Assembly: GCA_039096225.1 (NCBI GenBank)
Contig: JBBPEB010000009.1
Location: forward strand, 1,329,001-1,393,000
DNA length: 64,000 nucleotides
From: Blastocystis sp. Blastoise
Lineage: Eukaryota; Sar; Bigyra; Opalinata; Blastocystidae
Reading direction: 5' to 3'
In this document: positions 15,797-64,000 of the stretch, in pieces
Position numbering within the stretch: position 1 is the first letter of the stretch
Layout: every line of letters starts with the position of its first letter
Program-made: the position numbers and the translations under genes
The notes under the pieces: generated by a model
What the model was told of the DNA's origin: nothing
What the model saw: only the letters and a program-made list of their open reading frames with translations
Databases searched by the model: none

Positions 15797-15833
<37 letters not shown>

Positions 15834-18180: not shown

Positions 18181-21154
<2,974 letters not shown>

Positions 21155-22660: not shown

Positions 22661-22715
<55 letters not shown>

Positions 22716-23374: not shown

Positions 23375-23405
<31 letters not shown>

Positions 23406-23711: not shown

Positions 23712-24075
23712 TAATAAATAGATAAATAGATAAATATATTTATTTTTTTTTTATTTTAGTAAATAATAAATTAATCAAGATTATTATAATTAATTCAATA
23801 TAATTTTTATTATAATTTTTTTAAAAATTTTTAAATTTTTTTTGTTTGTGTTTGTGTTTTAATAGAAAGATTAAAGAGAAATAAATAATATTTCTTTTTA
23901 AAAAGAAATATTTTAATTTATTTCTTTATTTATTAAATTGATAATATAATAATAAATAAAATAAAAAAAAATGAATAAAAAGAAAGATATAAAAATGAAA
24001 ATAAAGAAAGAAAAATAGAATATAATAATACGAATAGAGAAATGAAGAGAATAAGAATAAATAATAGAATTATTA
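23712..24075. other. Spacer upstream of coiled-coil gene and tRNA
   Basis: AT-rich spacer of 364 bp between the start of the leftward coiled-coil gene and the rightward tRNA gene. It presumably holds the coiled-coil promoter. No motif is supported. Duplicated at 54429-54792. Confidence 0.5.
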
Positions 24076-24148
24076 GCCCGTCTAGCTCAGTCGGTAGAGC
24101 GCCAGGCTCTTAACCTGGTGGTCGGGGGTTCGAGCCCCCCGGTGGGCG
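24076..24148 (+). tRNA. tRNA-Lys(CUU)
   Basis: A 73-nt intronless cloverleaf. The acceptor stem GCCCGUC pairs with GGUGGGC, with G as the discriminator base. The D arm carries AGCTCAGTCGGTAGAGC (A box), the anticodon stem CCAGG/CCUGG holds loop CUCUUAA with anticodon CUU, and the T arm is GGGGGTTCGAGCCCCC (B box). No CCA is encoded, as usual in eukaryotes. T-runs from about 24152 can serve as the Pol III terminator. It is one of the few GC-rich islands here. An identical copy is at 54356-54428 (-). Confidence 0.98.
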
Positions 24149-24413
24149 TATTCTTTTATTTTATTTTATTCTATATTTTATTTTATTATATATTTTATTT
24201 TTATTATTTTTATTTTATTTTATTATATATTAAAATTTTTATTATATATTTTTATTATTATCATATTCATTCTTTTTATTCTTTTTATTTTTATTTTTAA
24301 TTAACTAAACTATTATTATTATTATTATAAATTATTATTATTATTATTAAAAAAAAAAGTATATAATTATAAAATATATATATATATAAAATTTAAAAAA
24401 AAAAAATTAAAAT
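24149..24413. other. Spacer between tRNA and giant gene B 3' end
   Basis: 265 bp of T-rich then A-rich DNA. It contains the Pol III termination T-runs and the giant-B 3' UTR. No gene. Duplicated at 54092-54355. Confidence 0.5.
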
Positions 24414-29291: not shown

Positions 29292-29363
<72 letters not shown>

Positions 29364-32300: not shown

Positions 32301-35300
32301 ATATACATAATCACGATTTTGTTTATCATTAAAATAATTACGAAGTACACTGGCTACATCTGAATTAATACGACCAATTTGTTGTAATAAAGTATTCTGA
32401 TTATATATAATTTGTCTTTCATTCTTATCTTTTATATTTATATATTCTAAAGCATCTTCAAGGTTCTTTTTCTTTTCTTCTATTTGTTTATAATAATCAT
32501 CCTTATAGATATCATAAGATATATATTTGAATACTATATCATTCTCAATAACATCTCGATAATAACTAAGTGCCTTCGTAATAGAATTAATATTCTTTTG
32601 TAATTGTTGACTTGATATAGTATCATCAGTTTTATAATCTTTACTTTCATCAAAATACATACATAATAATGAAATAACTTCAAAGAAATGAACAATTCTC
32701 TTTATAATATCTGGTTTTTCTATATTTTTAAAGAAGTTAAAAACTTCATTAAATTGCATAAAATGTGTACCAATACGTGATAATGATAAGAATTCTCTTT
32801 CTCTTTTAATAATAAATGCTAAGGATGCTAAATATTCTAATGACAAATTTAGATCATTTAATGATAAATTATATGAATTATTATATAAATCTTTACAAAT
32901 TAATTCATATATATTATTATCAATAGATTTCTGATTATATCCATATCGATTGTTAATATAAGGAATAGTACTTTTAAGTGGCGAATTGATTAATTCTTTC
33001 TTTGTAGGTATTTCAAAAAAGTTATATAATTGCCATCTATAGAGTTCATTAAAATATAAAGTATCTTTATATAATACAGGTCTATTCTCTGTAGAACATT
33101 GAGTAATAATTTCATAAATTAAATGTAAAGGATAAACAATAATAGAATTTTTAAATAATGTTGATATTTGTTTTTCTATATTATTACATACTTGATTAGT
33201 AAAATTAGATACATGATCATTTAGTATTTTAGGCATACATTGTTTTAAAGAGCGAATACTATCTTCAATATTAGTATCACGTTCACTATTTGATAATATT
33301 TTCTGTAATATTCTTGCTGATTTATAATTGTCTTTAAAATGAGGAACTTTATCAGGATTCTTTTTAGGATAATAATTATATTCATTCATAAATGCTTCTA
33401 TTGTATCTAATTGAATTACACGCAAAGCTTTACGGAAATGTTTAGATTCTTCTATACCAAAATGAGTAGCTTTAATAATATCATTTTGATTATACAATTG
33501 ATATTTTACTATTTCTTGAACAGAAGAAACAGTTGCTAATGATTCACAAGATAAAATAATACATCTAGATAATAAAGGTGCAGGTATAGATGATATATTT
33601 GAAGAAGAAATAGTTAAAAATAAACGGAAATCAGGATGTATTTGTCGAATAGCTTTTGTTGTTGATATATTTTGTTTAAGAAAACAATTCATTTTATCTT
33701 CTTGTTCTTTATTATTCGATATATCTCTTTTATATATAGTAGGAGTATCAGATTCTAATAAAGTTAACATAGGATTATCTTGACATAAAGAATTTAATCT
33801 TTCTAAGATATCTCCTGAAACCATCTGAATATCTTCTAAAAATAACCATTTTCCATTTTCAATAGCATCAATTAAAGCACCATTTCTATATTTATAATCA
33901 GTAATAGATCCTTCATTCTCTATACTTTCATATCTACCTAATAATATACTAGTACTACTTTCTGTATTCATATGTATAGAAATAAATGGTTTATTTAATA
34001 TTTGAGCAAATTTCTTTAATGTATATGATTTACCTGAAGGTGAAGATCCATATAATATAATAGAACGAGAAGATTGATATGATAAACCTAATTTATAACA
34101 TAATATTGTTTCACTTGTAGTTAATTCTAATGAATCCATAATAAATGAATGATTATAAATATTATTAAATTTTATTTCCCAAGGACCTTTAAAAATACAT
34201 TGATTTTTTGTTTTATCACTTGAAATAGAAATAGTAAGTATATCTGACATTCCTATAGCTTTATTCATATCTTCTAAATACTCACCATTATATTTACAAC
34301 AAAATATAAGCCATAATGCAGAACGTATATCTAAAGATGAATTTAAACAAATATCAACAACTTTTAAAATATCACGTAAAGTAAATGGTATACGTGTTTG
34401 TTGAGATATTTGATAAGATGTATCTAATATATTCCATAATTGTTGTTGAAATTCAGTATTACCTAAAATAATACTATTTCTTTTCTTTGTTTCTTCATCT
34501 TCTTTTACTTTAATAACTTTACGATCATTTATTGAACTTAAATAATAACTACTTAATTGAATTAATTCTGTTTTAGAAAAATTAATACCTTTAAAATAAA
34601 TACATATAGAAATAAGATTAGAAGGTAATGTATTTCGATTAGCAGACATAGTAACAGGATTTAAGGTATTAATAATATATATTTCATTTAAATGAATATC
34701 ATCAGAACCTGGAATAGTAAATAATTTAGATTCGGATTGAATAGCACGAATTAATGTTGATATAGTATCTAATAAATCAGGAGATGCTAAATTTAATTCA
34801 TTAAAAATAAGTGCACTTGTTTTATAATCATTCTTTAAAAATGTAGTTAATGGTCCATCAATAAATTGTATACTTTGATTACTATTAAATTTATAACTAC
34901 CAAAAAGATCTTCAATAGTAATATTTTGTGCAAAATCTACAATATAATAAGGTATATTCATAGAATCAAACACTTTTAATGCATTTTCAGATTTACCTAT
35001 ACCTGGTGCTCCTTCTAATAATAATGGTATATGAGTAATAATAGATAAATAAATAGCTATAAATATATGAACAGTAGTAGGTACAGGATATATAATATGA
35101 TGTAAATTAGAAGAAGTAATATCATTATTTGAATTTAATAAATTAAAAAATTGTTCAACTATTTCTTTATGAAAACATTTTTGAATCGATAATTTATAAT
35201 TATTATATATATGTAATGGATCTTGTTGACTTTCTTTAAAGAAATCATTACAATAAGATGATTTCATTGGATAACAGAAATCAATTATATCTTGTGATGG

Positions 35301-38300
35301 TTTATATTTAATAGTATTATTCATAAATGAATTATATAATTGAACTCGTTCATATTCATCAGATATACAATATTCCATAAAAAATAATGCATCAGAAGAA
35401 TTATTAAAATATTGTATTAATTGATTTGTTATAGATAATAAAGAAAAAGAAGTTATTGAAGAAGGAAGTAATTTAAATAATGATTGTATTTCTTGTTCTG
35501 TAAATGGTTGACATAAAATAGAAATAAAATCATTTTTTAATGAAAAATTAAAATATTGATTACTATCTATAGTAGATATTAATAATGGAGGATTCTTTAA
35601 TGTATTATATAAACTATCTGTACAATCTTCATAAAATACATGCATTTGATCATAATGTAATAACATTTTTAATCTTGGGAATATAGAATCATTCATTAAA
35701 TCAATATTTTCTAAAAGAATAGGTCGATCTAAAAGAATACCTTTCGTAATACTGCCAGGATTAAATAATATAGATGATGATTTTTCATTATTAAATGTCG
35801 ATAATAATTGTTTTAGAGTATTTCCCCATAAAATTCTATTTCTTTCAGGTAATACAATAGAATGTTCTTTAGAATGAACAATATTATTATAAGTAATTTG
35901 TATTTCTGTTTCATTAGAAAGTGTTGTAAATCCAATTAAATGTGTTCCTTCTAAAGAACGAGATAATTCTATAGAATATATATCTGGATATATATATTGA
36001 ATAACTTTATTTTTATAATTTTCAGAACCTACTAATAATATAGGATATTCATATAATATCATTCCTATACGAAATAATGATTCATTTAACCATATATATG
36101 ATTCAATATCTTTATGATAATAAGGTATATATACTTCAAGAGATCCTTTTACTAAATGATAATATGATATATCATCAAAATCATCATATTGTTCTATAGA
36201 GAATAAAATAGCTTTATACATATGAATAGGAATAAAAGAAGATCGTTCCATAAATTCATTCTTAGAACAATGAATTATTTCTATATTAACAGGTGATGCT
36301 AATATTTCCATAATCATTGAATTTGGATAATGTTTAGATATATATTGTAATGTAGAAGGTTGAACTTGATATAAACATATAATAGAAAGAATAGATATAG
36401 GTATTTTAAATAATGATTGTATATGTTTAAATTTTATTAATGATGATAATGATATTTCAGGATAAGATAATAAATAATATAAATTTATACCATTATTATT
36501 CTTTTCTTTTTTAGATTTTTCATTATCTTTTTTATCATTATTATTATTATTATTATTTTCTTCTATATAATAATCATTATCCTTTGGATATAATGTATGA
36601 ATAATTTGATATTTTTCTTCTGGTGTATAAGGTGATAATACATAATGAATAATATAATTAGGAAATTGATGAGAAATAGATGTAACTTGACATGAATATA
36701 AAAATATCATTTTAAATTGTGGATGTATCTTATGTTCTACACCAGAAAATATAAATGTATCTTCAATAGGATTACAAAATAATTGAAATGATTGAAATAA
36801 ATCATTTGTTAAATATTCACTATGATCAATAACAACAATAAATCCAGATTCAATATATTTTAATAATAATCCATCATGATATATACCATCACTAGTATAA
36901 AAACCCATTAGTTGATTTAATTCTGTATCATTTGATAATGTTAATATCTTTATTTGGGGTATATGTAATATATTTACTAATGTATTTATTATATATGATT
37001 TTCCTGTATCTTCTTCTCCAGATATACATAATGTACGATTTAATGAAAGACTTATAATAAAAGATGATATTAAGGATCCATATAAACTTATATTATTTAA
37101 TTGACTTAGACATGGTTTATTCTCTAAATCTTTTCTTAAATATATAATATGTTGAGATATTAAATATTGTAAAGGATCTATAGATTCATATATATTATTC
37201 ATATTTTTATATAATGATAATATTTGATAATGCTCACAAAAATTAAGCATATTATATATATTTTTCTTTTGGAAATAATTTGAAATAGTATATGAAGACG
37301 GTAGTAATGACATTTTTTCAGATTCTGTATGAAGTTCTTCTCTAGTAAATAATAATTCTTGGTCAATTTGAGGAGAAAGTTCATATTCTTCTTTATTAGA
37401 AGTTTTAGGTATATATATAATAAGAAAACGATTTAATAAAGCAGGTGAAAAATGAGATAATGATGATTTTATAGTAGTAGCAACTAATCGAAAATCAGGG
37501 TTAATTGATACGACTGGATCTTGACTACGTTCATCAAATCGAATATAATGTTCATTATTATCATTTAAATTAACTTCTAATAAAGAATTTAATCTTTCAA
37601 TAAAATTACTATTCATATTATGAAGTGAATTAAATAAACAAATACCACCATTTTCAATAGCTGTTAATAATGGAGAATTTTTCCATTGAGGTATTTGTGT
37701 TTCCATATTAATTTGATATGTACCAATCAATTGATCCGTTGATAATGACGAACTACATTGAATTTTTCCATAATATTGTTTTTTCCTTTCTATTCGATAT
37801 GATAAAAATGCATCTGTATAAATAGAAGCAGTAAAAATATCTTCACCAACAACTAATATATGATTTCCTGATCTTATAGCACACTTAATTCTATCTGCTA
37901 TATCTGAATATATACCTATTTGTAATGGATATTTAGGATAAAATATAGTTCTTTCTTTAACTGGAGAATTCTTATTAATATTATATACTATTTCAAGAGC
38001 TCTATTTAGTTTTAAATCTCGATTTAATAAGCTACGAACACGCATACAATCACGTAATGTATATTCACGAATATAATCATTATTATATTGTTGTTGTTTA
38101 TGTTGTCGTTGATAATTGGATCGATCTAAAGCTCGTTGTTGTTCTTCAAATACTTCATGAGCTTCATTAGTCATATCTTTACGGAATATATTCATAACAA
38201 TAGCTTTTAATTCATTTGGAAATATTTCAGGAAATTTTGTATTATCAACATAATAGAAATAATCTTTAATATCTGCTTTTAATTGATTTCGTTTATATAA

Positions 38301-41300
38301 AGAACCAGCAGGATTCTGTGTACAAATAATTCTAAAATTAGGATGCATTTTATATACACAACTTTTTCCAATTTCTTCTATATATAATTCTTTTGAATCT
38401 AAATACCCTAATAATGCTTGTACTATAGTATCAGGAGCTAAAGATAATTCATCTAATAATAAGATATAACCGTGAATAAAAGCATCTGTAAAAGGACCTA
38501 ATTTATATATAATCTTTGGTTTACCATCTATACTAACAAGAGCAATTTCTCCTAATAATTCTTCAATAGTTGAAACAGAAGAGAAATTATATCGAATTAA
38601 AGGTAATTGTTTTTCATTACATATACATTCTACAGTGAATGTTTTTGCAGAAGAAGTTGTACCTTCAATTAATAAAGGTATATAATTTAATATTGATCTA
38701 TTTACTATTTCTTTTCTCTTTTTAGATTCATTTGTACTCACATATATAGGTAAAGATTGAACAGCAATAGATTCTTTATAGGGTTTATAAGTAATATTAA
38801 TATTATTAATACGAAGTGTTAATGTATCTTTAGAAGAATGAATAAGAAGATAAGGAAAAGAACTAATAAATGTATATCCTTCTAAAGATATTTGTTTTCC
38901 TTGTATATTTTCTATTATATAGAAATATATAGTAGATGGAAAAAAATTATAATTAGTTCCTCTAGGGAAAAAAGGGAATAAATAGGAATCTCTTGTCTTT
39001 TCATTATATAAGGAGACTTTCTGATTTGTTTTAAAACATGTTAAACCATAATATAATGAAGAAGATAAAGTTGGATAATTATATAAATTAATTCTATTCT
39101 CTAATGAATTATTATTTTGATTAGGAATCGACGAAGAAGAAGAATTAGATTCGTTATTATTATCATATTGACAATCAAATTGAATCGAAAGACTTTGATT
39201 CAACGGTAATATCGTCACATCCTCAGAATTATTCATTTTTAAGAGAATTCCTATAGGTATATTATTATTATTATTTAAATAAAAAGAATATTAAATTCTA
39301 AGAAATGTAAATATTATATGAAAGATGATAGAATAATTATTATAAAACTAAAGAAAATAAAAGAAAATATATATATATACCAGTTTTAGTTAGATCAATA
39401 ATAGGAATACTATTAGAGTTAGTTTGAGGGTTTAAAAGGTGATCCCTCATGTACAGAGGGGTTAATGGATATTTAGAGAAATAATGTTTATACATTTTTG
39501 AATTCTCTATTTCATAATCTTCTATATATATATATTTAATGATATATATATAATATAATAGAAGAATAATATATATATATACCTTCAATATTAATAATAT
39601 TTAATTGAATATCTTCAGAAAAAGGTAATATATCATTTATTCTTTGTACTATAGAATAATAATAGTAATAATTTGGTTAATAATAATAAAAACTATATAT
39701 ATACAGAAATCAAGTGGAATAGTAAGACAACTAGGAATAGGTATTTGATTTTCATTATTCCCGCGGTTATATTGATCAGTTGGATGTGAATAAGTATATA
39801 ATATACATATATCATCATAATGAATATCTATATATGTATTAATAATCATATATATATATATATATAGCATACCATCAACTAAAAGAAATGAAATATGATT
39901 GGCTATTATAGTTTTAATGATCCAATCAGATGTCAAATTTGAACAAGAATCTATATATATAATTATATATAGATAATTATATATATATATATATACATTG
40001 TTCAATGATTTTCATATTATCATTTGTAGTACCTATATATATATTATATAATATATATATATATAATTATATATATACCATTCATAGTAATATTTTTAAA
40101 TTCAACATATTCCAGATTTGCTGAAGGAAACTAAATATATATGTATATATATATATATATATAAATATATAAATATATAAATATACTTGAATAATATAAA
40201 TATCTTCATAATTTTGGATATTAATTTTTTCATCATTTTGTGGAATAATTTTTTCTTGAGAAGTATATAAATATAAATTCATATTATTTTGATGATATTG
40301 TTCCTAGAATATTATATATAGATATAATATAATACATATATATATATATATATACATCAATTTGTTGATATAACATTGAATTTGTTAAATCCATTTTAAT
40401 TTGTTTTTGACAATTTGTACATGAATACAAACATATTAAATTTATCTATATATATTTATATATAAAAAACAATAAATAGATATATATAAATATACAAAAA
40501 TAGATCGACTAAAGATATCAATATCACCATCTTCTTCTTTATGTTCATCTTTTCCCGTGGGAATTCCTTCATTAGTCTGTATATTTTGAGGAATAGAAGT
40601 AGTAGGTTGTTGTATATTAATATCATGACTGGAAGAAGTTAATAATTGTGAAGTAAAACCAGGAGATAATACAGGAGATCCATCTACAGCAGAGACATCT
40701 TCATTATTTACGGGAATATTAGAATTTCCAGTATTAACATTATTATTTCCATGATTACTTGTAGTATTATTAAGATATGTATAGTTAGTTTGTGGTAATA
40801 ATATAGGAGGTGGAGAAGGAGATTTCTGATTATTCGCGGGAGACGAAGGAGGCATTGGAGGCGAAGGAGATCGTATAGGATTAGTAGATGCTATATTCCC
40901 GCGGTTATCTGGATTAGTAGAAGAAGTTGATACTGGAGATGGAGAAACATATGCCTATAGATAAGTAATAATTATAATAAAATAGTTCTTATATTGATAT
41001 ATTGTTATTATTAATTATTTTATTGAATAATTAATATATACTTTTTGTTCATTAGCACTATATACTTGATTCTGAGAAAAGATCTATTTATAATGAAATA
41101 TTAATACTATATTATTAGAATAATCAAAATTAAATTAAATTAAAAGAATAATATAACATAATAACTATAATAATAATAATTCTTAACGAAAATGCTAATA
41201 AAACATAATAGAACATTAAAATAATATCAATAATATACTTGGATAACAGAATTCATTTGAAATCCAAGTTTAAATATAGGTTGTGATATATCTATATAAT

Positions 41301-42099: not shown

Positions 42100-43860
42100 A
42101 TCTAAATAAAATAAATTATTGCTTTTTGGTTTTTTATGGAAAAAAACTCGCAATGCAGATAAGAAAACACTAGTAATTTTTCTTAGTTCGTATTTGTCAT
42201 ACGATTAATGCTAGTAATAAAAAGATATTTCTTTAAATTATTCTAGAACAATACTGTAATTTGAAAATTATTGCATCATGCAAACTTTATTAAATTTATC
42301 GTTACAATTAGTTTTTTCTAGGTTATATTTTTTAAATTAAATAAAAAATAATAATAATACTGAGCATGACCATTCATTATTATTACATTAAACTGATAAA
42401 ATTAGCATGAATAAAGTTATATGAAACAAAGAAGTTTCAATTAAACAAAAGACTTGACATTCCCAGGTAAAAAGTGCAATTTATAGGGTCAAAAAAAAAT
42501 GTTCATTTTTTTAAAACTTTTACACAATTGGATAGTTTAAATAGGTGCTTTTTCATTGAAACCTTGTTGAATGAGCTTAGAATTATGTCCTCTATCAAAA
42601 TGAACCTAGTGTAAAAATAATTTAAAAATTTTGAAATGAATGGAGAAATCTCTTGTTATATTTTTATTTTTTATAATTTTTCATACCTAAAATACTTTAT
42701 ACATAACCCAGATAGTAATGAAATATAAAAAGTGAGATTAATATACAAAGTCAAATTTGTAGATTAATCACTTGATTCTGTCATAATATAGTGAAAAAAG
42801 GTGTAATTCTTCGTTTTATATAACTAGAAGAACTAGGAGTATATTTATTTTCATAAATGATTCTTTATCACTGTCAGGCAGGGTGGCCTATTTAAGAGTT
42901 TTGATTGGCTAATTTTAAAAATAGTCCAATAATTTTTCTTTAAAAAATTGACCTTCTAAAAAAGTGGTTTAGAGAAGGAATTTTTCTGAAAAACAAAAAA
43001 AAATAATTCTAAGTCGCTATTATTTTTCTATTTTTCTATATTCTTCTCATATAGAGTTAATATGAGGTTTTTGACATTATATTCAATCAATAGGGTCTTT
43101 ATTTGACAAACAGAGCTGCTTTTTATGTTTGTTTTCTTAACATTAGTGGTTTGGAAATGTTGACTTATTTTCAATAAAAAGTTGTTAAAATGCATTCAAT
43201 AGACCATGTAGACTCATAATATAAATGAAAAAACTTGTTTTATGATGTTTATAAAAAAAGTCAAAAACAAAAATTCAGACAGTCAAATTTTGTAATACAC
43301 GGTAATTTTTTCATTTCAAAAGAAAAAGCAAAATTTGAAAGTTGGTCTTTTGATTACTTTTTATATTGAACTTGATGTATGATTATATATTTTGTTTTAA
43401 TATATCATTTTTTATTTAGTGAGGATGTTCGTGTTTCAAATTTGTTGTATTTTATATATTTTATTTTAGTTAATTCATTTCTTATTTTAGGTATCAGGTC
43501 TTTTAAAGATGAGACAACTCTGCCCATCGTGAAATTGGGTTCTGTGTTTTCCTAGGTGGTTCAACTGGATCAAAAATACTTTCTGTATATAATTATATTT
43601 TTTAATTAGCATTATTTATTTAATCTATCTTTATTTTATAGTATAGAATGATTGCTGGTGATCAAAAGTGTTTATTTATTTATTATCTGTCAGTCTAGTA
43701 AGTATTTATATTAATTAGATTGTAATTACTTATTTTTTCTATTATATATATTTTTTAAATTTATTTTTTTATTAATTTATTATATTAATCGCTATCTTAT
43801 TATTTCTACATTTTTAAATATAATTTTTATTCTATTTTTACGATAATAAATTATATATAT
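42100..43860. other. Gene-poor interval of different texture
   Basis: No coding frame is supported. The DNA lacks the TA/AAT repeats of its surroundings and is somewhat less AT-rich in places. The stretch CAGGCAGGGTGGCCTATTTA near 42.88 kb looks like a DNA-transposon end, but no matching inverted end was found. Near 43.49-43.70 kb, pieces bounded by TTTTAG, CCTAG and TTATAG suggest short spliced exons without an open frame. It probably holds the giant-B promoter next to mobile-element debris. Confidence 0.45.
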
Positions 43861-43985
43861 ATAGACATACGAGTTAATACTTTCATTGAGTGAAGAACTT
43901 GTTTATCTTTTAATTTATTTTTTGTAGTGTTTATTATATATCAAAATATAGATGAGTATATATATATATTATTATTATTATTTAT

Positions 43986-44044
<59 letters not shown>

Positions 44045-44633
44045 CTGAGATATTATTATTATTATTATTATTATTATCTGAGATATTATTATTATTATTA
44101 TTATATAATATATTTAAATACTATTATTATATATTAAATATTATCAGTTCTCTTATTTATAAATTAAATAGATAGCAGAATTTGATTATAAATCTATTTT
44201 TTCCCGTGGGAAGAAAGATAATCTCTGGTCGATGGGTGATGGTATCGATACATGCGGGCGTTGTACTGAAATTTTTTATGCACATGTATATAGATATAGA
44301 TAAATATAATAATAATATAAATCATATTATTTATAAAATATTTTTATACTATTTATATATATAGGATCCTGATTGATATATAAATGATGATCTTCTTGAA
44401 ATATGGAACACTGTATTCATGGAATACGAGCAGAAGGAGTATATATATATATATAATTATATTTAATGATATTTGTATATTATACTATATATATACAATA
44501 TAATGAATAATTCTATATTTAATTTTATAGTTATATATATTATTTCCCTCCTTTTATCTTAGTCTTCCCTCGTTCCTCTGACACACTACTACTTCGACAC
44601 ACGAATGGGTGCAGAACGTATGGCCATACGTGT

Positions 44634-44688
<55 letters not shown>
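44634..44688. repeat. (TA)n microsatellite intron in AlaRS relic
   Basis: A pure TA tract bounded by GTATATAT and ATATAG separates the ERMAIRV and IQGVCSNF exons of the AlaRS-like gene, so the intron is almost entirely microsatellite. Confidence 0.8.
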
Positions 44689-44691
<3 letters not shown>

Positions 44692-45401
44692 TTCAAGGCG
44701 TATGTTCAAATTTTGATACAGATGTTTTCTATTCAATAAAATATAATTTACTTGTATATATATATATATTCTTAATTATATATAATATATATATTATAAT
44801 ATAAACTATATACAGTTAATTCTGCAACCCTATATAAAAACTGATAAAAATCACGTGCTCAATTTGAAAAGTTCCCGCGAATCACTTCCCGCGTAAACCT
44901 ATCACCGTATACTACGTTGCTTAATATTCTTTCAGACCATTTCAGAACAGTTTCAGCACTTATATATCAAGGTATATATCCATCGCATACAGGTTGCGGA
45001 TGTATACTAAGGAAACTAATCAGGTATATATATATAATTATTACTCATAAATACAATAAGTATAATTTATATATAATCCTATATATATAGATAGGGTTTA
45101 AAATATGATTATATATACAATATTCAATTCCCTTTCTTGTCTTCTTGTATTCCCGCGGTTATTCAATCTTTAGGTTTATATATATATATATAATAGAACT
45201 GTTTTATCCTGATATTCCAAGTCACGTACAGAACATAACGTCAATTGTGGAGAATGAGGAAATGCATTTTTGGCGGGCATTTGAGTGCGGTAAAGATAAC
45301 ATGAAGACATATTAAAATCATCAAAAGTATATACTTGTGTTGATTTATTTATTTTAATTTTATTATTGTTATGCTTATTTGTATTGTAGAATTAGCTTAT
45401 G

Positions 45402-45444
<43 letters not shown>

Positions 45445-45734
45445 TATATAGAAGCGATCTATTCCCCCATCTCTCGTGGATTTGAACCAATTATATGGAA
45501 GTACAGGAATTCTATTGGGTTTTTCTCGTGTATTATTGGAAGAACGTGGAATTGTGTTACAGAACACAAATATTCCTGAGGATGAAATAGACCAATCAAA
45601 AAACAAAGATAATAAATCTAAAAGAACAGTATTTATCATATATTTATTAGTTATATGTATATTTATTTATAGAATATAGGTTTAGATAGTTATGCTATTC
45701 CCGCCCTTTCTGTTCTTTCCGCGCTTCACAATTC

Positions 45735-45736
<2 letters not shown>

Positions 45737-45802
<66 letters not shown>
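45737..45802 (+). repeat. (AAT)n tract
   Basis: About 22 AAT units within an AlaRS-like exon just before the editing-domain motif. It would code poly-Asn and is an insertion relative to the family. Confidence 0.9.
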
Positions 45803-45805
<3 letters not shown>

Positions 45806-46242
45806 CTTCCTCCTCTTCTTTCAACACAATCAACATCTAGTATACAAGCAATATTGAATCCTCCCCGCGGGGATAAAACTAAATATTCATATGCTTGTAT
45901 TGATCCATGTCCATTCTTCCCCACGGGAGGGGGTCAAGTGGGGAATCAAGGAACACTATTTACTGATGATAGAAACACTATTCCAATTATAGATACTATT
46001 CGTGTGAATGACCATTGTATATTATTAAAGACTTCCATTTCTGTTCCCAAGTCCCTCCTTCATGCACGTGTCAATCCCTCTGTTAACTCTGATAATTGAA
46101 CGTATATATATTTATACTAATATTTTTATTCTTATTTTGCTTTTATTTTTCTCTATCTCTATATATATATAGTCAGACCTCTATTCATCACACTTCTACT
46201 CATCTCCTTCATGAACTACTTCGAAGATAGATTAATGATCCA

Positions 46243-46274
<32 letters not shown>

Positions 46275-46735
46275 TATATATATATAACTAATTATATATA
46301 TATATAGGCCTTATTAATCCTTTGAGTTCGAAATTCCCTCTAACTTCTCCTCTTCAGGCGGGAAGTTATGTGGATCCCTCTATAATACGATTGGAATATT
46401 CATTTAAAGGGGATCAAAATAGCTTGCCACAAGTATTAAAGAACGTTGAGAAAATCAAGAATATTATTACCAAACAATGTATATAGGAGTTATAATATAA
46501 TAGTATAACATAATATAGTATATAATATAATAGAATTGTATATAATAGTTATAATATAATAGTATAGAATATAATAGTATATAATATTATATTATATATA
46601 GCTAATCCTGTTCATTATGATTATATGTCCTATACTAACTCGATTTCCCGTGGTTATAATGGTATATTTGCGAATAATTTCAAAGAGATCGTTCGAATAG
46701 TTGAAGTGGAAGGAGTTAGTAAAGAATTATGTGGA

Positions 46736-46779
<44 letters not shown>

Positions 46780-47100
46780 TTATTATTATTATTTTTATAA
46801 CTATTATTATAACATTATTATAACATTATTATAACATTATTATAACATTATTATTATAGGAACTCATTGTGAAAACATTAAAGATATTTATCCATTTATA
46901 ACTCTCAAGAATTCATCTATTTCCGCGGGAATAAAAAGAGTAGAAGTAGTAACAGGTATGTATATGTTTTGAACATAATTCAAGAATCTAGTATTATTAT
47001 AAAACTTTTTATTATATTTATATTTATTATTATATATATATATAGGTCCAAAAGCAGTTGATTATTTATATACTTTATATAATGAGTATATATCTTTAAA

Positions 47101-48620
<1,520 letters not shown>

Positions 48621-48778
48621 TATAATATTCAATATCTATTTTTTTAGATATACCTAATTATTCCCGTGGTTATATACTGTTTTCCTGTTATCCCATAGTT
48701 TATCTTCCCTCCTTACAGTGGTGTGTTGTCTTTATGGATCAATAATCACGGGAAATACTTATTCGTGAGAATTTCTCA

Positions 48779-48813
<35 letters not shown>

Positions 48814-48832
48814 TTTATTATTATACTTTGAG

Positions 48833-48870
<38 letters not shown>

Positions 48871-50010
48871 TATCACAATTCCATACATACTACAGAAAAA
48901 TAATCATTATCTATTATAAATTCAACATATCAAATATATATACAACTATATACATCCTTTAATACCCGTGTTTTATTTCCCTTATTGATAACCATGATTA
49001 TGAGAACATGGTTATGATGTATTGTATATATATATATGTATATATACTATTATTATTTTATTATTATTATTATATAGACTTTTGGATAATTTATTTTGTA
49101 TATTTAAAAAATGATAACTTTCCAATGTATATATACATTTATAATACTATATTAATATATATATATATATATATATTTAAATTATATCTAGTTTAAAAAT
49201 CATGTATATATAGGATAGAAAAAAGTTTAATATATATTTTTATTATATATATTATAATAATATATTACTATATATACTATATATTATCTATTTTATCTAT
49301 CTTTTATGTTTTAATTATTTATATATTACTCCTTTTGTTTTGTGGTATTTAACAATAATAATATTTATAGAATTCTTTTTGAATAATAGAAAGAAAAAGA
49401 TAAAATATGAATCTACTTTATGTTGTAATAAATTACATTCTTTATTATGTCTAAAGCAACTTAATGACCTTTCAAAAAAATAATTTTATTCAGTCACTTA
49501 TAATATTCGATAATTCGTTTTAATAAAACATATTTAAAATAAAAGTTTATAAATTATAATTCTTATATTAATAAATAACTATATTAAATATATTCTTTTA
49601 TTCTTCATACTCTTTACTCTATAAATTAAATGTTATGATATAATATAACTGATAAATATTTTGAATTAGAATTATAATGTGCTAAAATAACAACATTTTT
49701 GTTTTAATAAGTCTTAAACATGTTGAAATAAAATAATTTATGTTGATAAACACATAATATATTTATAAATCAATTTTACATTCAAATAGACTTTATAAAA
49801 GAGAAAAAGGGAAAATTTTAAAATGTTTTAACCCCTGGAAACAACGAATTTATACAAACTTTTATTATAGAAATAAAGATTTTATAAGGGGGAATTTCTC
49901 ATTGTTTTTAAGATTTAATATTTTCACATATTTATTTTTATTTTTATTTATTTTTCAGATATATTTTATATATTATAAAATGTATATAATATTTTTTATT
50001 TATTTTATGC
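48621..50010. other. Gene-free AT-rich interval
   Basis: TA tracts (48.78-48.87 kb, 49.14-49.18 kb) and unstructured AT-rich DNA. One GC-rich palindrome copy is at 48661. No coding, RNA or transposon signal recognised. Confidence 0.5.
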
Positions 50011-50017
50011 TATATAG

Positions 50018-50563
50018 GCTTACTGGTCTATCCAAATGATTTCAAATGGGTCGCAATTGGTCTTCTTCTTTAAAGGTATGTTTCTTTTTCATTTCTTTTA
50101 TTCTCTATAGGTAGCCTATGAGTTGTGGAGTATGGACTAGAAGGAATCCTGTGTTGTTGAAGGTATTTATTTTTACATTCTCTAGGTTATTTTTATTTAT
50201 TGTCTTCTATAGGTTCAACTGTTGTCTCTGGTCTCCTTGATCCTTGACTATCTGGTTTTAAAGGTATATATTATTATTGTATTTTTTTTGAAATTAACTA
50301 TTTTTATTTTTTATAGATAATAGGTGGTTTATGGTGTCCCTCTTAATTATAACGAGTTGGTATTTGAAGGTATATTGCTTTATTATATTTATTTTTTTAC
50401 ATTCTATTTTTATAGTTGTAATTTCTCTTAACTGGGTTGTCTAAAGGTGCTACTAAAAGGTATATATTATATATTATCTATATTATTATTAGTTCTATTA
50501 TTTTTATATGTATAGTCCTCAAAATGGTTCACAATCAACTCAAAACAAATCAAAATAACTATT
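50018..50563 (+). other. Ladder of tiny non-coding exons
   Basis: At least six exon-like blocks of 44-58 bp (50018-50075, 50111-50162, 50213-50263, 50317-50369, 50416-50459 and 50516 onward) alternate with intron-like blocks of about 35-56 bp. Donors all read AAG/GTAT, and acceptors read TATAG or CTATAG. Joining the first two blocks meets a stop in every frame, so this is not protein-coding as read. It could be a spliced non-coding RNA or the relic of a many-intron gene. Directly downstream is the mariner insertion. Confidence 0.45.
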
Positions 50564-50728
50564 ATTTTTGTTGTTTTCTTTTATTGTTATAATTATTATA
50601 TTATTATTTATTGTATTTTGTTATTATATTTTTTATTATCATTCACACAACGATTAAATAAATAAAAAAATGACGTTTCTAAAAGAATTCTAAACGAATG
50701 AAAAGAAAGACCATATCCGACAAAAATA

Positions 50729-52988: not shown

Positions 52989-54091
52989 ATGGTTCCTGCT
53001 CCTACTTGTAGTTCCTCTGAGCCTGTTTCTTCTTCAAGTTGTCAGCATGAAGGTATACACTTATCTTTTTTATATATTTTTGATAGATCAACAAATCAGA
53101 TCTGTGGATCCTTCCCAAACCCCTGATGCTGTTAATACTGCTGCTGCTGCTGCTGCTAGTAATATACATAGTGATGATATTCACGTCGATAGAAGCTGCT
53201 CTTCTGCTGGTGCTGATGTTTCTGATTGTGCTCAAGGTGATCAGAAGTCTGCTGTTCATGATCCTCATTCCGTTGATATTTCTGAAGACTGCTGTGATAG
53301 AGAATCTAATGATGTAGCTTCTTCAGAAAAAGCAATTGAGGTATTAGATAAGAAAAGGCCAATAGTATCATCAAAAGGTGATTTTTGTTTATCGATAATA
53401 ATGGATTGTACAGGTTCAATGAATCCACCTTATAATGAAGTAAAGAAGCATATATTACGAATAATAGATTTATTAATAAAAAATAAGAGAGAAATTTGGA
53501 AAAGAAGAATCAAAGATAGTAGGTCAATTTATAGGTTATCGAGATTTTTATGAGCCAGATTATATAGAACATTTTTCTTGTTCCGAGATAATAGATGATT
53601 TTGAGATATTAAAAGAATATATAGATAAAGTAGAGATTGAAGGAGGTGGTTTTATGCCAGGATGTTGTGCTGGAATGTGTGAAGATGTTGAAGGAGGAAT
53701 AGAGCAAGCATATATAAGAATGAATAAAGAACCGTATAATAATTATAAGCATATAGGTATAATAATAGGTGATCAACCAAATCATGGTATATATGAAGTA
53801 TGTACATTAAATGAGAATCCTGAAACACATGAGAATTGGGATGATATATGGGATAAACATATAGAAATAATAAAGAATATAGATGTAGAATTTTATATGA
53901 TACCAATAAATTGTATAAATGATAGTGAAATAGTATCCGAGAATAGTGCATTTGAATTTACAGCAGATTTATTACATTCCTTATTACCAAAACAATTTAT
54001 AAAAACATATATACAAGATGATTTAGATTTTGCTCATTTATTTGCAAAAATAATAACAGATTCTTATGAAAGATATATGAGTATATCTTAA
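52989..54091 (+). pseudogene. Chimeric ORF: unrelated 5' gene piece fused to duplicated giant-B vWA end, frameshifted
   Basis: The first part reads MVPAPTCSSSEPVSSSSCQH (exon 52989-53052), a 34-bp intron (53053-53086), then a Ser/Asp/Ala/Cys-rich segment up to EKAIE at 53338. It is G+C-richer than host genes and of unknown origin. A consensus donor GTAAGT near 52933 and the acceptor TTGCATAG before the ATG suggest a 5' exon upstream. From 53339 the frame runs directly into the giant-B C-terminal vWA (VLDKKRPIVSSKGDFCLSII, DCTGSM). A six-A run at 53478-53483 (five in the left copy) shifts the frame and stops it at 53553. The rest of the vWA (53490-54091, ending ERYMSIS) stays intact in the other frame. 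If transcribed, it would give a fusion ending within the vWA domain. Confidence 0.85.
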
Positions 54092-54355
54092 ATTTTAATT
54101 TTTTTTTTTTAAATTTTATATATATATATATTTTATAATTATATACTTTTTTTTAAATAATAATAATAATAATTTATAATAATAATAATAATAGTTTAGT
54201 TAATTAAAAATAAAAATAAAAAGAATAAAAAGAATGAATATGATAATAATAAAAATATATAATAAAAATTTTAATATATAATAAAATAAAATAAAAATAA
54301 TAAAAATAAAATATATAATAAAATAAAATATAGAATAAAATAAAATAAAAGAATA
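54092..54355. other. Spacer between vWA relic and tRNA
   Basis: Duplicate of 24149-24413 in inverted orientation, AT-rich, no gene. T-runs on the minus strand serve as the tRNA terminator. Confidence 0.6.
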
Positions 54356-54428
54356 CGCCCACCGGGGGGCTCGAACCCCCGACCACCAGGTTAAGAGCCT
54401 GGCGCTCTACCGACTGAGCTAGACGGGC
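54356..54428 (-). tRNA. tRNA-Lys(CUU), right-arm copy
   Basis: Reverse-complement, base-for-base copy of the tRNA at 24076-24148, with the same cloverleaf and anticodon CUU. The duplication doubles the gene dose, and nothing suggests decay. Confidence 0.98.
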
Positions 54429-54792
54429 TAATAATTCTATTATTTATTCTTATTCTCTTCATTTCTCTATTCGTATTATTATATTCTATTTTTCTTTCTT
54501 TATTTTCATTTTTATATCTTTCTTTTTATTCATTTTTTTTTATTTTATTTATTATTATATTATCAATTTAATAAATAAAGAAATAAATTAAAATATTTCT
54601 TTTTAAAAAGAAATATTATTTATTTCTCTTTAATCTTTCTATTAAAACACAAACACAAACAAAAAAAATTTAAAAATTTTTAAAAAAATTATAATAAAAA
54701 TTATATTGAATTAATTATAATAATCTTGATTAATTTATTATTTACTAAAATAAAAAAAAAATAAATATATTTATCTATTTATCTATTTATTA

Positions 54793-55098
54793 ATGAATTC
54801 AAATCATATTAAAGTATCAATATCAACTATTTCAGATTGTATTATTCCTAATCTCATTGAAAAAAATCAATCTTTACATAAATTATATACAACTGAAAAA
54901 ATAAGAAATAATATATATATTTTATTTTATTTATATTTATATTTATATTTATTTATAGTATATAGAAAAACAAAATTTAGAATTATTAAAAGAAAATGAA
55001 CAGTTAAAAACTGAATTAATACTTAAAGAACAAGCTATGGATTCTATATTACAACAAAATATATCTTTACAAACATCTAATATTTCAAATAAGTAATT

Positions 55099-55129
<31 letters not shown>

Positions 55130-55843
55130 AAATAAAATAGTTCTTTTTCTTCTGAATTACCAAATCCAAATTATTTTATATCAATAACACCTGTTATTAA
55201 TCGTACAAAAGAAATTTCTAATGAAAGAATTGCTCAAATTGAAGAAAATGCTACAAAATTAAGAGAAGAAACAGAACAAAGAATTCATAATATAATATCT
55301 CAAAAAGAAACACAAATTAATTTATTACAAGTATATATTTTATATTATTATTATATTTTATATTATTATTATTATATATATTTAGAATGAATTATATGAA
55401 TTAAAGAAAAAAAATAATGAATATGAAATAAAAATACAAAAATTATTAGTAAAAGAATATCAATTAACACAAGAAAAAGATATATATAAAATAAAATATA
55501 ATGATTTAATAAATGAAAATAATCAATTAAAAATTGATTTAAATAATATTCAAAATGTATATATTTATATAATATTATTATTATTATTATAGAAATATAA
55601 AAATGAAATAAATAATAATATAGAAAATAATAATAAAATAGAAAAAATAACAAATGAAAATAATTCTTATGCAAAATTATTATTTAAATATAAAATATAT
55701 GTATTTATTATATAATATTATTATAATTATATATTTAAAAAAAAAATTATTTTTATAGTTATCTTATATAAAATATAATAAAATCAAAATTCCTATTCTT
55801 AGTATTATTCCATGGAAAGGAAAATATTCTGGATATATAAGAG

Positions 55844-55902
<59 letters not shown>

Positions 55903-56447
55903 TAATTATTTATTTTATAGTTTTTTACAAATGAAAATCAAGATTTATGTTTTGATATTTATTATAATTTAAATCATCATATTCATTATATATATAATAT
56001 TATTGAATTAATTCCTGATACAAAGTATATATAATATATAATATATATAATATATATAATATATATAATATATATAATATATAGAAATGAAAATCGTTTT
56101 ATTATACATTATTCAAAAGAAAATAAATTAAAACCAAAACCAATAATAGGTATACAAATATCAAATAGTATAGAAGGAGAATATATATTAGAATCTAAAG
56201 ATAAATCTCTTATTTTAGATATTATTAAACAAATGATATTATATGTACATATTCGAATTGAACATCTTTCTGATGTATATATTATATATTATATATTATT
56301 ATATATTATTATTATATATATATATAGGATGATTCATTATCTCCTTTACCTCCTCTATCTTATAATGAATCAAATACTATAACATCTCAAATACATCCTT
56401 TTTATCCAGATATTATTCATGATTATGAATCTTTTTTCTATTCTTAA
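54793..56447 (+). CDS. Coiled-coil protein of unknown function (right-arm copy)
   Basis: Near-identical copy of the gene at 22116-23711, starting at the same ATG (MNSNHIKVSIS) and ending YESFFYS-stop at 56447. It has the same coiled-coil and C-terminal IPILSIIPWKGKYSGYIRF part. Two differences matter. The donor of the first intron reads AT instead of GT (about 54912; AATAATATATAT against AATAATGTATAT on the left), so normal splicing may fail and the ORF would stop soon after. An additional 55-bp intron (55331-55385) splits the coiled coil, where the left copy is continuous. The acceptor of the second intron (AAAATAG before TTCTTTTTC, 55140/55141) is normal, unlike the left copy. Function unrecognised. 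Confidence 0.68.
55331..55385 (+). other. Intron present only in the right-arm coiled-coil gene
   Basis: A 55-bp intron GTATATATTTTATA...TATATATTTAG between CAA and AAT-GAA. The left copy joins CAA-AAT directly at 23174/23173 (minus strand), with the same amino acids. Confidence 0.92.
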
Positions 56448-57411
56448 TCTTTATTAATATTATATATATTATTATTATTAGTTTTTTTTTATTTTCTTTT
56501 TCTTTTTCTTTTTTTAATAAAATAAAATAATCAACAAAACAATCAATTAATAATATATAATATATATATTTTTTTGTAATTTTATTTATTGAAACATATT
56601 ATTATTATTATTATATAAATATAATAATAATAATAATGATAATAATTGAACTGTTGTAAGAAATAAAAGAATAACTAATATAAGAATAAAATATATATAT
56701 ATATTAAAGTGTATAATTCATAAAATATACATTTAGATAATAAAATATTATTTGAAATATATATAAAGATAAACAAAGAAAAAGAAATAATAAACTATTA
56801 GAAAATAATAAGAATGAATACAACAGAAAGAATTGAATATATTGAATAATTATTTTTAAAAAAATTTATATAATACTATTATTGAAAAGTAAATACAATT
56901 TATATATATATATATTATTATTATTATTGAATATATAAATAATTATATATTCAATAAACTAGATATATATTTATATATTTTATATATATAATAACATAGA
57001 AACAAAAAATAATTATATTAAATAAAATAAGAAAACTAAAATAAACAAAAAAAAAATAATTATTTTTATATATAAAGATAGAGTAAGAGAAGGTTAATAA
57101 AAAAATAAAAGTAAATATTATTATTATTTAATAAATAATATAAAACTAACAAGAAGAAGAAGAAAAAATAGATTAAAGATAAATATATATATATATATAT
57201 TATATATATATATAGAAATAAAAGCAAAAGCATAACAAAAAAATAAATAATTATATTCTGTAAATATATATATATTATAATATTATTTTTATTATTAATA
57301 AAATAAAATATTGTTTTCTTTTTTATATTTTTATCTAAAAAAAAAAGAAAAAGAAAAAAAAAAAATAATGAATAAAAAAATATATTTTCATTTATAATAT
57401 ATTATAAATAA
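56448..57411. other. Convergent 3' spacer (right-arm copy)
   Basis: Inverted duplicate of 21155-22115, lying between the stop codons of the coiled-coil and SANT-like copies. AT-rich, no gene. Confidence 0.6.
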
Positions 57412-60388
<2,977 letters not shown>

Positions 60389-60873
60389 TTTCTAACACTA
60401 ATTATACATGACGTTACTAACACTTATATATATACAGAAATTCTATTTTTATATAGTAATAGCAATGTAAATCTCACTTGAATAATCTAAAATATATATA
60501 TATATATTAAATAATATTTAAACATAAAGAATAAATTATTTTAAAAAAATAAAATAAACAACATTCAAATAAAGATGATTCTATGAACTTATTAATCTTA
60601 TAAGAACTCACAGTAATCATTGATATCAATATGTATATTCTAATAATAGAAACAAAATGAAAAACACTCTTCTTATATAATAAACATACTAATCAAGAAA
60701 TATAACACAACAATTAATTATTACTTAAGTAAACAAATTATACAATAAGTAATAAGATAATAATTGAGTATAGAATGCTGAACAATTTGAATTAAAAAAA
60801 AAAACTTTGCTTCACTTCTTTCTCTTTATTATTATAATTTTCTATAATTATTTTTCATTTGTGCGGGACACAA

Positions 60874-62226
60874 TTGGCCAGACTAAATTGCGCTATTAAC
60901 TGTTCTCGGTTTCTGGCGGATACTACTAACCAGAAAGATAACAAAAAAAAGCCAGTGAAAAAATTGGTTTTATCACGATTATAAAGTAGTATTCTTTTGA
61001 TCATTTTTCAAAAATAAAAATCGAGGTACAAAAATCGTTTTTTGCTATTTTAAGGGCAAAGACGTTTGAATATAAAAGAAATTATATTTTTATTTATACA
61101 TATATGTTATTTAAATTATAAGAAAAGTGAGATATGAATCATAACATTAAAAATAAATGAGATATTAAGAAAAGTCTATAATCATTAAAAAAGTAAAATT
61201 ATAGAGAAAAAAAGTTAATAAACCTGGGAATGCTAAAAAAATTCTTTTTTTCCCATATTATTTAATTCTCTATTTTAGATTAATAACAGAAAAAAACTAT
61301 TTAAATTTAATTAATTCAGATATTATTATATGTATATATTTGTGGAAAAATATCATTTAAAGCTATAAACGTTATTTTCTAAGAATCAATACAATTATGT
61401 TTATAAAATATGACTATTCAAGCATAATTAACAAGATGTGTATTTTTAAAATATTTATTTAAAACAAATTGCAACTAAAAAACTATTTTGTGTATGTGAA
61501 TATAATGTGAATTAATAAATGGCAACATTTACGTGTTTAAATCGTTGTTTAAGAAACACTGAGACATTTCTTAGGAATAAAACCGATTTATTTCTCATTT
61601 TGAGTATTCAGAAAACACGGACTTTTTAATAAAATATTTTAATATATGTAGTCTTAGTAATAATACTTTGCTGATTATACACGAATAATGCATTTTATAA
61701 ACATAATTGTATTGATTCTTAGAAAATAACGTTTATAGCTTTAAATGATATTTTTCCACAAATATATACATATAATAATATCTGAATTAATTAAATTTAA
61801 ATAGTTTTTTTCTGTTATTAATCTAAAATAGAGAATTAAATAATATGGGAAAAAAAGAATTTTTTTAGCATTCCCAGGTTTATTAACTTTTTTTCTCTAT
61901 AATTTTACTTTTTTAATGATTATAGACTTTTCTTAATATCTCATTTATTTTTAATGTTATGATTCATATCTCACTTTTCTTATAATTTAAATAACATATA
62001 TATATAAATAAAAATATAATTTCTTTTATATTCAAATAATTTTGCCCTTAAAATAGCAAAAAACGTGTTTTTGTACCTCGATTTTTTGTTTTTAAAAAAT
62101 TGTCAGAAATAACTACTTTATAATCGTGATAAGATCGATTTTTTCACTGCGTTTTTTTTGTCATTTTCTGGTTTAAAATATCCGCCAGAACCGAGAATAT
62201 TTAATAGCGCAATTTAGTCTGGCCAA
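60874..62226. mobile_element. 1,353-bp foldback DNA transposon, non-autonomous
   Basis: Flanked by an 8-bp target duplication GGACACAA (60866-60873 and 62227-62234). The left arm of the large duplication carries this octamer once, uninterrupted (17696-17703, minus strand), which proves the insertion limits. The termini are TTGGCCAGAC...GTCTGGCCAA. The inverted repeats are about 535 bp each (60874-61409 and 61692-62226) around a 282-bp centre, with scattered differences. No transposase ORF. The 8-bp duplication fits hAT-like or P-like elements but the ends match no family I can name, so it presumably depends on a transposase encoded elsewhere. Confidence 0.95.
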
Positions 62227-62234
62227 GGACACAA

Positions 62235-63271
62235 ACTAAACCCTTCTTTTACTAAAAAGATATTCACAATTATTTATTAAATATTCCTATGACTTTATTA
62301 AATATTTATGAAACAAAATTTTATGGCATTCCTATTTTCAAGGGGATTGTCAATTAGAACCATTCTACATTCATTCTCTTTTTTCGTTTTCGTTTTCTTT
62401 TCTTTTAAAAAAAGACTAAACCAATAATTATATATTTATTATCATATATAGATTATCTTATAAGGTTTAGTTTTTCTATTTTATAATTATTGATTGGTTC
62501 TTTTCTATTATTAAAACAAAAGGATTCTTTATTACTTTTATAAAGATTGAAATCAATTCTAAATTATTTATAAAGACTTATTCTATCATATTTACTATAA
62601 AATAATAAAATATTAAAGAATGAAAAATTTTAAAAAATTATCTAGTTCTATAAAATCATTATTAAAATGAATATAAACAATAGATACTTCATTATAGATC
62701 ATCAATTAACGATTATCTATAAGTCAAACAATACAATAACAGAAATATAAGAAATATTTCAGAGTTTTTTAAAAATAAGCTTATGTTTTTCTTATAAATC
62801 ATTCCTTCTCATTATTATTTATTATTGATATTCATTAATATTATTATTCTATTTATTTTAAACTATATTTCTTTGATCATTATGAATAATTATTAAATTA
62901 ATAATTAAAAAATTATTTGTTTTAAATTTTGTCTTATTTCTTTTTATTTATAGTATATTTTATTATTTATAAAAGTGTTTTAAATATATTTATATTCATT
63001 AAAAGTTAAAATAATATTATTTTAGTTTTTTTATTAATTAATAAATTTTATACTGTATAAAAGAATATATTTTCTTTTTTAATAAAAAAAATATTTTTAT
63101 GTTAATAAGTAGAAAAATAATTAATAGATATAAATTTTATTTATATTTATTATAATGTAAAAGAAATGAAACTAAACTATTTTGTTATATATAAAGATAT
63201 TTTTAAACTATATTATATTTAATAATAATAATATTTAAAGAATAAGCAAAGCTAATTTGATTTATATATAA
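62235..63271. other. Intergenic spacer (right-arm copy)
   Basis: Inverted duplicate of about 16659-17695, between the foldback element and the 3' end of the AMSH-like copy. No gene recognised. Confidence 0.6.
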
Positions 63272-63804
63272 TTATATAGTTCTCATATCAATAACAGTTG
63301 TTATTTCATCTAAATAAACAACATTCTCTGCATTCTCATATAATATTAAATTATCAGGATGTTGATGATGTCCTTGTTGAGAACATGATTTAAGAAAAGG
63401 AATTTGAGAAGAACATAAACGAAATATACCACTTCTATATATATATTATATTATATAATATTATATATATATATATATATTTACGGTTTTTTAGTATCAA
63501 ATGGTGCAATAACAATAGCAATAGACTATAATAATATTTATAATAATATTTATAATAATATTCTTATTCATATACTTTATCTAAAAGAAGATGAAAAGGT
63601 AATGTAGTATGAATATCAATAGAAGAAAGAAAACAAGGTTGACGAGGATGAGACTATATATATATAATTAATAATAAGAATATATATATATATACATGAA
63701 TCCATCCTAACATATATATATCATGATTAGATAATTCAATACTAAGATCTTCTTCATTTAACATTGTACAACTATCACTATCACCCTATATATATATATA
63801 TATA

Positions 63805-63836
<32 letters not shown>

Positions 63837-63894
63837 TTTTTGTTTTGGAATAATTAAATGTGTTATTTTTATATCATCATTTATCTATATATAT

Positions 63895-63926
<32 letters not shown>

Positions 63927-64000
63927 ACATAGATTCCTCCTAAAATTCCACATGTTTCAAAAGGAGGTGTACTAATAATTGAAGAATAAGCTGCCTATAA
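63272..64000 (-). CDS. AMSH/STAMBP-like JAMM deubiquitinase (right-arm copy, 5' part beyond window)
   Basis: The catalytic-domain half of the second AMSH-like gene, stop TAA at 63272-63274. The same protein motifs as in the left copy are readable across exons: FETCGILGG, ITHLIIPKQ, the zinc motif WIHSHPRQPCFLSS and ID, then GIFRLC, HHQHPD and ENAENVVYLDEI. The gene structure differs. Introns at 63654-63695, 63786-63836 and 63885-63928 split what is one exon in the left copy, and the intron at 16536-16577 of the left copy is missing here. The window ends at an apparent further acceptor (TATAG before GCAGC) where the left copy reads TATAAG-GCAGC. The coding sequence is otherwise the same, so both genes could make the same enzyme. 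Confidence 0.88.
63654..63695 (-). other. Right-arm-only intron in AMSH gene (within the zinc motif)
   Basis: A 42-bp intron GTATATATATATATATTCTT...TATATATAG placed between CAT and TCT-CAT, that is, inside the His-Ser-His zinc motif. The left copy is continuous at 16234/16235. Confidence 0.92.
63786..63836 (-). other. Right-arm-only intron in AMSH gene
   Basis: A 51-bp intron GTATATATATAATAATAATA...ATATATAG between CAA-AAA and GGT-GAT. The left copy is continuous at 16144/16145. Confidence 0.92.
63885..63928 (-). other. Right-arm-only intron in AMSH gene
   Basis: A 44-bp intron GTATATATATAATATATATA...ATATATAG between ATC-TAT and ATA-AAT. The left copy is continuous at 16096/16097. Confidence 0.92.

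Follow-up and report, generated by a model that had tools for sequence, protein, structure and literature searches.

Intron differences between two copies of an AMSH-like gene

How can two gene copies with identical exons differ by whole introns, and which of the two states came first? We address this question at a locus of Blastocystis sp. Blastoise (genome of 33.3 Mb in 34 contigs, denoted by C and a number), in a window of 64,000 nucleotides (C3:1329001-1393000) that holds most of an inverted duplication. BLAST and exact-block comparison place the left arm at 9926-25165 (plus strand) and the inverted right arm at 70205-53339 (minus strand; 53339-64000 within the window), with a spacer of 28 kb between them. 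Because the right arm overruns the window, the adjoining sequence beyond 64,000 was analysed as well. According to the gene models, the arms carry intergenic DNA together with genes on both strands.

Each arm harbors a gene for an AMSH-like protease (JAB/MPN). The left copy (15025-16658, plus strand) is modelled as a 423-aa protein with a JAB domain (Pfam JAB, 1.4e-11), and its translation contains HSHPRQPCFLSSID, the metal-binding HxH...SxxD stretch of JAB domains. The model of the right copy (63272-64000 in the window, minus strand) extends to 65067. The best protein match of the left model, at 93%, is WA158_000794 from Blastocystis sp. Blastoise itself (stramenopiles, Opalinata), and the protein cluster of this entry has two members, encoded on one contig, which are presumably the two AMSH copies. 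The public WA158_000794 protein lacks the stretch YKTIINKDIFSLFYK (15985-16031), which by eye corresponds to the start of the AMSH catalytic domain, and the deposited gene model may be wrong at this point.

A DNA search of the genome, in which the best candidates were scored, revealed no third copy of AMSH that could serve as a standing template; only the two arms stood above the TA-rich background. Neither among the best candidates of this search nor by a JAB profile search did we see an intron-free AMSH retrocopy. The profile search matched the left exon and five other places, which may or may not be related to AMSH; since it misses the split right copy, other split AMSH copies could escape it too.

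Differences between the arms were listed from the exact-block comparison. The original prediction held that three introns of the right AMSH copy are absent to the base from the left one, and the exact comparison bears out both their positions and the left junctions. The right copy alone contains introns of 42 bp (63654-63695), 51 bp (63786-63836) and 44 bp (63885-63928), whereas the left copy reads through at 16234/16235, 16144/16145 and 16096/16097, respectively. All three run GT...AG on the minus strand, that of the gene, and no base is gained or lost at the left junctions. A fourth difference, suspected at the window edge, proved to be a 36-bp GT...AG segment at 63995-64030 (minus strand; 63995-64000 in the window), which again occurs in the right copy only, the left copy reading through near 16030/16031. 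The coding sequences had been described as nearly identical, and around the differing introns the exons show 0 substitutions in 2,327 aligned bases (left positions 15335-17703).

The left copy is not a simple loser, as the prediction had implied, since the right copy itself lacks an AMSH intron present in the left, of 42 bp at 16536-16577 (plus strand), and reads through at 63352/63353. The left copy is without introns 6-9 of 12 and the right copy without the last one; among the introns common to both are those at 16313-16362 and 16404-16453 (plus strand; 63526-63575 and 63435-63484 in the right copy). Outside AMSH, a 55-bp intron at 55331-55385 (plus strand), in the gene at 55037-56447, is found in the right arm only, and the left arm reads through at 23173/23174. 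A gene model made from the sequence alone had put an intron at these exact coordinates. Neither this intron nor the one confined to the left AMSH copy had been caught by the earlier reading. The remaining genes of the arms, such as that at left positions 18181-21154 with seven predicted introns, show no intron differences. Along the proximal arms (left 15335-25165, four stretches) there are 5 substitutions in 9,695 aligned bases, fewer than the six intron differences between the arms.

Exact intron absences in mobile-element copies

Intron change on this timescale had been called rare, but in this genome the AMSH pair does not stand alone. Each near-identical duplicated segment that we compared in detail displays intron differences, though not each gene. 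Three further pairs, all of mobile-element copies outside the arms, illustrate this. C25:298834-305687 and C4:1815729-1822807, a pair that surfaced by chance in the first genome DNA search, differ by six precise introns, all absent from C25, with 4 substitutions beside 6,509 identical-block bases. Copies on C19 and C5 show four intron differences, two absent from each, with 3 substitutions beside 4,102 identical-block bases, and those on C2 and C29 show two (102 and 58 bp), with 1 substitution beside 1,966. Counting the arms, the four near-identical pairs show 21 indels of at least 20 bp, of which 18 are exact GT-AG introns (19 of 22 rows when a fifth pair, which repeats one site, is added). 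Of the remaining three, one alters intron length by 28 bp, one alters TA length by 42 bp and one is a 1,361-bp insertion. Exact GT-AG ends occurred by chance in 115 of 20,000 random segments of matching lengths (0.6%) and in 6 of 5,000 TA-rich ones. An aligner artefact limited to short indels was tested by size: most of the lost introns measure 32-58 bp, and one 102 bp.

Likewise, alignments of multi-copy genes are interrupted at introns. In a six-copy set of one gene (C2, C30, C31, C15, C13 and C29), all 17 internal gap clusters of at least 22 columns are intron sites, and the intron is absent at 30 of 102 site-copies. A seven-copy set (C4, C25, C17, C18, C19, C5 and C23) consists of copies 3-6% apart, except for C4/C25 and C19/C5; in its C18 member two additional exons lie where the other copies have introns, and these exons do not enter the intron-site count. 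The carriers of these genes have CACTA-like inverted ends, CACTATCAGCGAT...ATCGCTGATAGTG, and 3-bp duplications, TTT and TAA, in the two copies examined. Inverted ends of this kind with a 3-bp target duplication are traits of the CACTA superfamily, and we class the carriers as CACTA-type on this ground. One CACTA-type copy lies in the spacer between the arms (42869-50659, approximate ends, no strand assigned). At both the 102-bp and the 58-bp site it carries an intron, which is absent from some sister copies. Its 1.5-kb left part recurs at no fewer than about 40 places in the genome, and the middle varies between groups.

As a separate observation, in four element copies one upstream sequence gives way to another within a TA-rich intron, near alignment column 2010, as though introns served there as recombination points for exon shuffling.

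Ancestral state of the variable introns

The AMSH pair consists of two copies without an outgroup and alone cannot be polarised, so we turned to the multi-copy sets. Of the 17 variable sites in the six-copy set, 16 show the intron in three copies or more. In the seven-copy set, every one of the 13 variable sites, located by eye, shows it in two copies or more. Taken together, two or more copies share the intron at 29 of the 30 variable sites, indicating that the differences there are losses, with the exception of site 7 of the six-copy set. In the element of the window, 14% distant, the intron is present at both the 102-bp and the 58-bp site. This element did not serve as an outgroup for all 17 sites; among the aligned sites listed for it and the six-copy set, only the last of the 17 align well. 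By analogy only, the AMSH differences would be losses too.

At site 7 (alignment column 2591), four of the six copies hold the 14-bp GTATATATATATAG (GT...AG), C2 holds a 41-bp intron and C29 holds nothing. This could be a shrunken intron, or one that has grown in C2.

Runs of neighbouring losses, splice junctions and reverse transcriptases

Neighbouring introns tend to be absent together. Pooling the left AMSH copy, C25, C5 and C19 gives 9 adjacent pairs of losses against 3.3 expected (P 2.5e-5, the number of sites in the older family having been fixed by eye), while copy by copy the clustering is weak (P 0.018 for the left AMSH copy, 0.046 for C25 and 0.17 each for C5 and C19). The six-copy set yields 13 adjacent pairs against 7.3 expected (P 0.0055), or 12 against 7.1 when site 7 is omitted (P 0.015). 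C25 lacks five neighbours, towards the 5' side, and one more intron, and C5 and C19 lack two neighbours each. A 3' bias of losses, expected from simple poly-A priming, was not seen, the losses being mostly internal; such a bias is a trait of one priming model and not of the whole family of losses mediated by reverse transcriptase.

Splice-site use varies among the absences. The same intron is missing from C4/C25 and from C19 through different 3' splice sites. In C17, the 5' site of one intron is joined to the 3' site of a later intron, with 764 bases missing relative to C4; alternatively, this junction could stem from a DNA deletion that fused two introns, the fused intron then being lost. Private substitutions amount to 1.15, 2.86 and 0.89 per kb where none, one or two of the flanking introns are lost, with no clear enrichment in loss tracts. 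The loss patterns of the six copies conflict with one tree and require repeated loss or recombination.

Reverse transcriptase genes are plentiful in the genome. Of 21 RVT_1 matches, 20 lie above the cut-off, 13 of these 20 fall in open frames that span 2,400 aa or more, and ten have an equal score. On C10, C13, C14 and C29 the genes form four pairs, about 8.5-8.6 kb apart and with identical scores, which may be a sign of a recently active retroelement.

Probable loss through spliced RNA and its alternatives

The original prediction had left two explanations side by side, loss through a cDNA or gain of introns. The splice-exact absences, the runs, the ancestral introns at 29 of 30 multi-copy sites and the reverse transcriptase genes favour its cDNA-loss branch, whereas the gain branch finds no support wherever polarity is readable. 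We therefore read the differences as probable recent losses of ancestral spliceosomal introns, templated by spliced RNA through cDNA conversion or RNA-templated repair, and give this a probability of about 0.7.

Gain would mean that TA-rich introns, introner-like or arising by TA-repeat expansion, were newly inserted into the right arm, C4 and other copies. The introns are indeed short and nearly pure TA, the AMSH pair by itself is not polarisable, and a full-length intron at site 7 is confined to C2. However, the intron occurs in at least three of six copies at 16 of 17 variable sites and, by eye, in at least two of seven at 13 of 13. C4 and C19, about 5% apart, carry the same 53-bp intron at one and the same position, and introns shared between copies have an equal composition, so that TA-richness is not a mark of new introns. 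Gain thus appears improbable. We give still less credence to deletion at the DNA level without RNA, by end joining or by slippage at TA repeats. TA repeats are unstable here, and C4 at alignment column about 1750 looks like two TA introns fused with the exon between them removed; yet the 18 of 21 indels that end exactly at GT and AG stand against 0.6% of random segments, and TA slippage in the same data alters repeat length and removes no introns.

The main rival is an artefact of assembly, in which RNA-seq or cDNA reads that were used in polishing, or slipped into it, deleted introns from the consensus of some copies. We hold it to be unlikely, though it deserves more weight than the two alternatives above. 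Splice-exactness and runs are expected under it too. Losses fall mainly on tips, more divergent copies do not visibly lack a larger share of introns, and the loss patterns do not track neighbouring SNPs and conflict with a single tree. Moreover, five HSP70 and two actin matches, from genes presumed to be strongly expressed, are uninterrupted, while some relatives are split into exons; this agrees alike with a real loss process and with the artefact. On the other hand, the consensus appears as accurate as expected from DNA: among 102 A/T homopolymers of at least 6 in about 26 kb of duplicated sequence (four comparisons) there is one pure single-base difference in run length, with a few mixed ones. 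Mobile elements scattered through the genome account for many of the losses, and there RNA coverage would hardly exceed DNA coverage; the lost introns reach 102 bp. Identical sets of losses at sites 1, 4, 5 and at sites 8, 10 (4 identical pairs against 0.7, P 0.008) suggest inheritance, and the four losses of C4 are nested in the ten of C25 (P 0.09 with 17 sites or 0.05 with 19 sites, counted by eye). The 1,361-bp insertion is found in one arm only, indicating that the arms were assembled separately.

Two further candidates were rejected. CACTA-type ends with 3-bp duplications (two copies) imply that the carriers should move as DNA, without losing introns by moving, and the AMSH arms hold intergenic DNA and genes on both strands; loss by transposition through partly spliced RNA is out on these grounds. 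Internal eliminated sequences of ciliates leave a TA behind. The junctions here retain no TA, and the missing segments run from GT to AG, so elimination of this type is out as well.

Proposed mechanism and pace of loss

In the loss through spliced RNA that we favour, the template would be a spliced RNA, which either is first copied into cDNA by the reverse transcriptase of a retroelement or itself guides repair. Recombination would return its sequence to the chromosomal gene in short tracts, each of which would remove one to five neighbouring introns exactly and keep the flanking introns. The internal position of the tracts would fit patchy cDNA conversion, as in Cryptococcus, or RNA-templated break repair, as in human cells.

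Between near-identical copies a large share of introns is gone within few substitutions, and copies 3-6% apart still share many. In the copies compared, exact intron absence is about as frequent as point mutations. Introns common to copies 3-6% apart are so numerous that a steady pace is impossible, and either a recent burst or purging of loss alleles (or losses made by the assembly) is needed. We lean slightly towards the view that Blastoise is undergoing a burst of intron loss across its genome, with spliced RNA being written back at a pace that would roughly match or exceed that of point mutation. This burst perhaps accompanied an expansion of reverse transcriptases.

Comparison with known systems

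In Dictyostelium, intron loss mediated by reverse transcriptase is documented, with 441 and 202 precise losses in two species, and it resembles the present case in exact removal, joint loss of neighbouring introns and abundant reverse transcriptase (PMC4683709). Cryptococcus shares with Blastoise internal islands of loss in place of 3' runs (PMC2395259). Both cases concern losses between species or related genomes, whereas here the losses separate copies within one genome, few substitutions apart, and affect 17 sites in one gene. In RNA-templated repair of double-strand breaks in human cells, deletion of a whole intron is likewise the scar of repair from spliced RNA (PMC12065846); that process is described there from reporter assays and tumour data, while our case concerns assembled gene copies of a protist, at high density. 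Introners and other recent intron gains also produce presence/absence differences over a short time (PMC9860276, PMC4202315), but in the opposite direction, the variable introns here being ancestral at 29 of 30 multi-copy sites. In Daphnia, detected intron gains outnumber losses nearly 18 to 1.

For Blastocystis itself, the ST1 paper puts the modal length of introns at 30 bp for three subtypes, and neither "retrotransposon" nor "reverse transcriptase" was found in its passages (PMC5608401); another paper notes turnover of minor introns (PMC10639083). Our literature search found no publication naming both Blastocystis and Blastoise and nothing combining RNA polishing with intron loss, and among the matches listed no title dealt with copy-level intron loss in Blastocystis. 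Events of this kind are already known; such density and recency were not met in the literature found.

Intron loss is usually inferred between long-separated genomes, which leaves patterns as the basis for arguing about its mechanism. In the present case, exact losses are numerous between copies few substitutions apart, whose flanks, splice variants and ancestral states can still be read. If the losses are real, the template (cDNA or RNA), the tract length, the enzyme and the rate would be directly measurable in culture. If a burst is under way, a large share of introns would be copy-variable, as are the 17 sites of one gene in six copies, and the rewriting of DNA from RNA could be watched in one cell line. 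Should the losses be an artefact, it would be an important one, as silent deletion of introns by assembly would mislead studies of intron evolution on such genomes.

Other features of the inverted duplication

The distal part of the arms (left 9982-15308) has 32 substitutions in 5,308 bases and 0 whole-intron differences. Divergence of the arms is thus bipartite, the segment 9926-15308 (32/5,308) standing against 15335-25165 (5/9,695). Ongoing gene conversion in the inner part of the inverted repeat may account for this division.

The 1,361-bp element confined to the right arm (60866-62226) has inverted ends of 380 bp that are 98% identical and begin with TTGGCCAGAC, and is flanked by the 8-bp duplication GGACACAA. 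The left arm is empty at 17703/17704, indicating that the insertion (or a loss) postdates the arm duplication. An intronless open frame of 4,940 aa with AAA_5 domains (24414-39236, minus strand) spans the inner end of the left arm, and two further open frames of more than 4,000 aa lie in or near the arm flanks.
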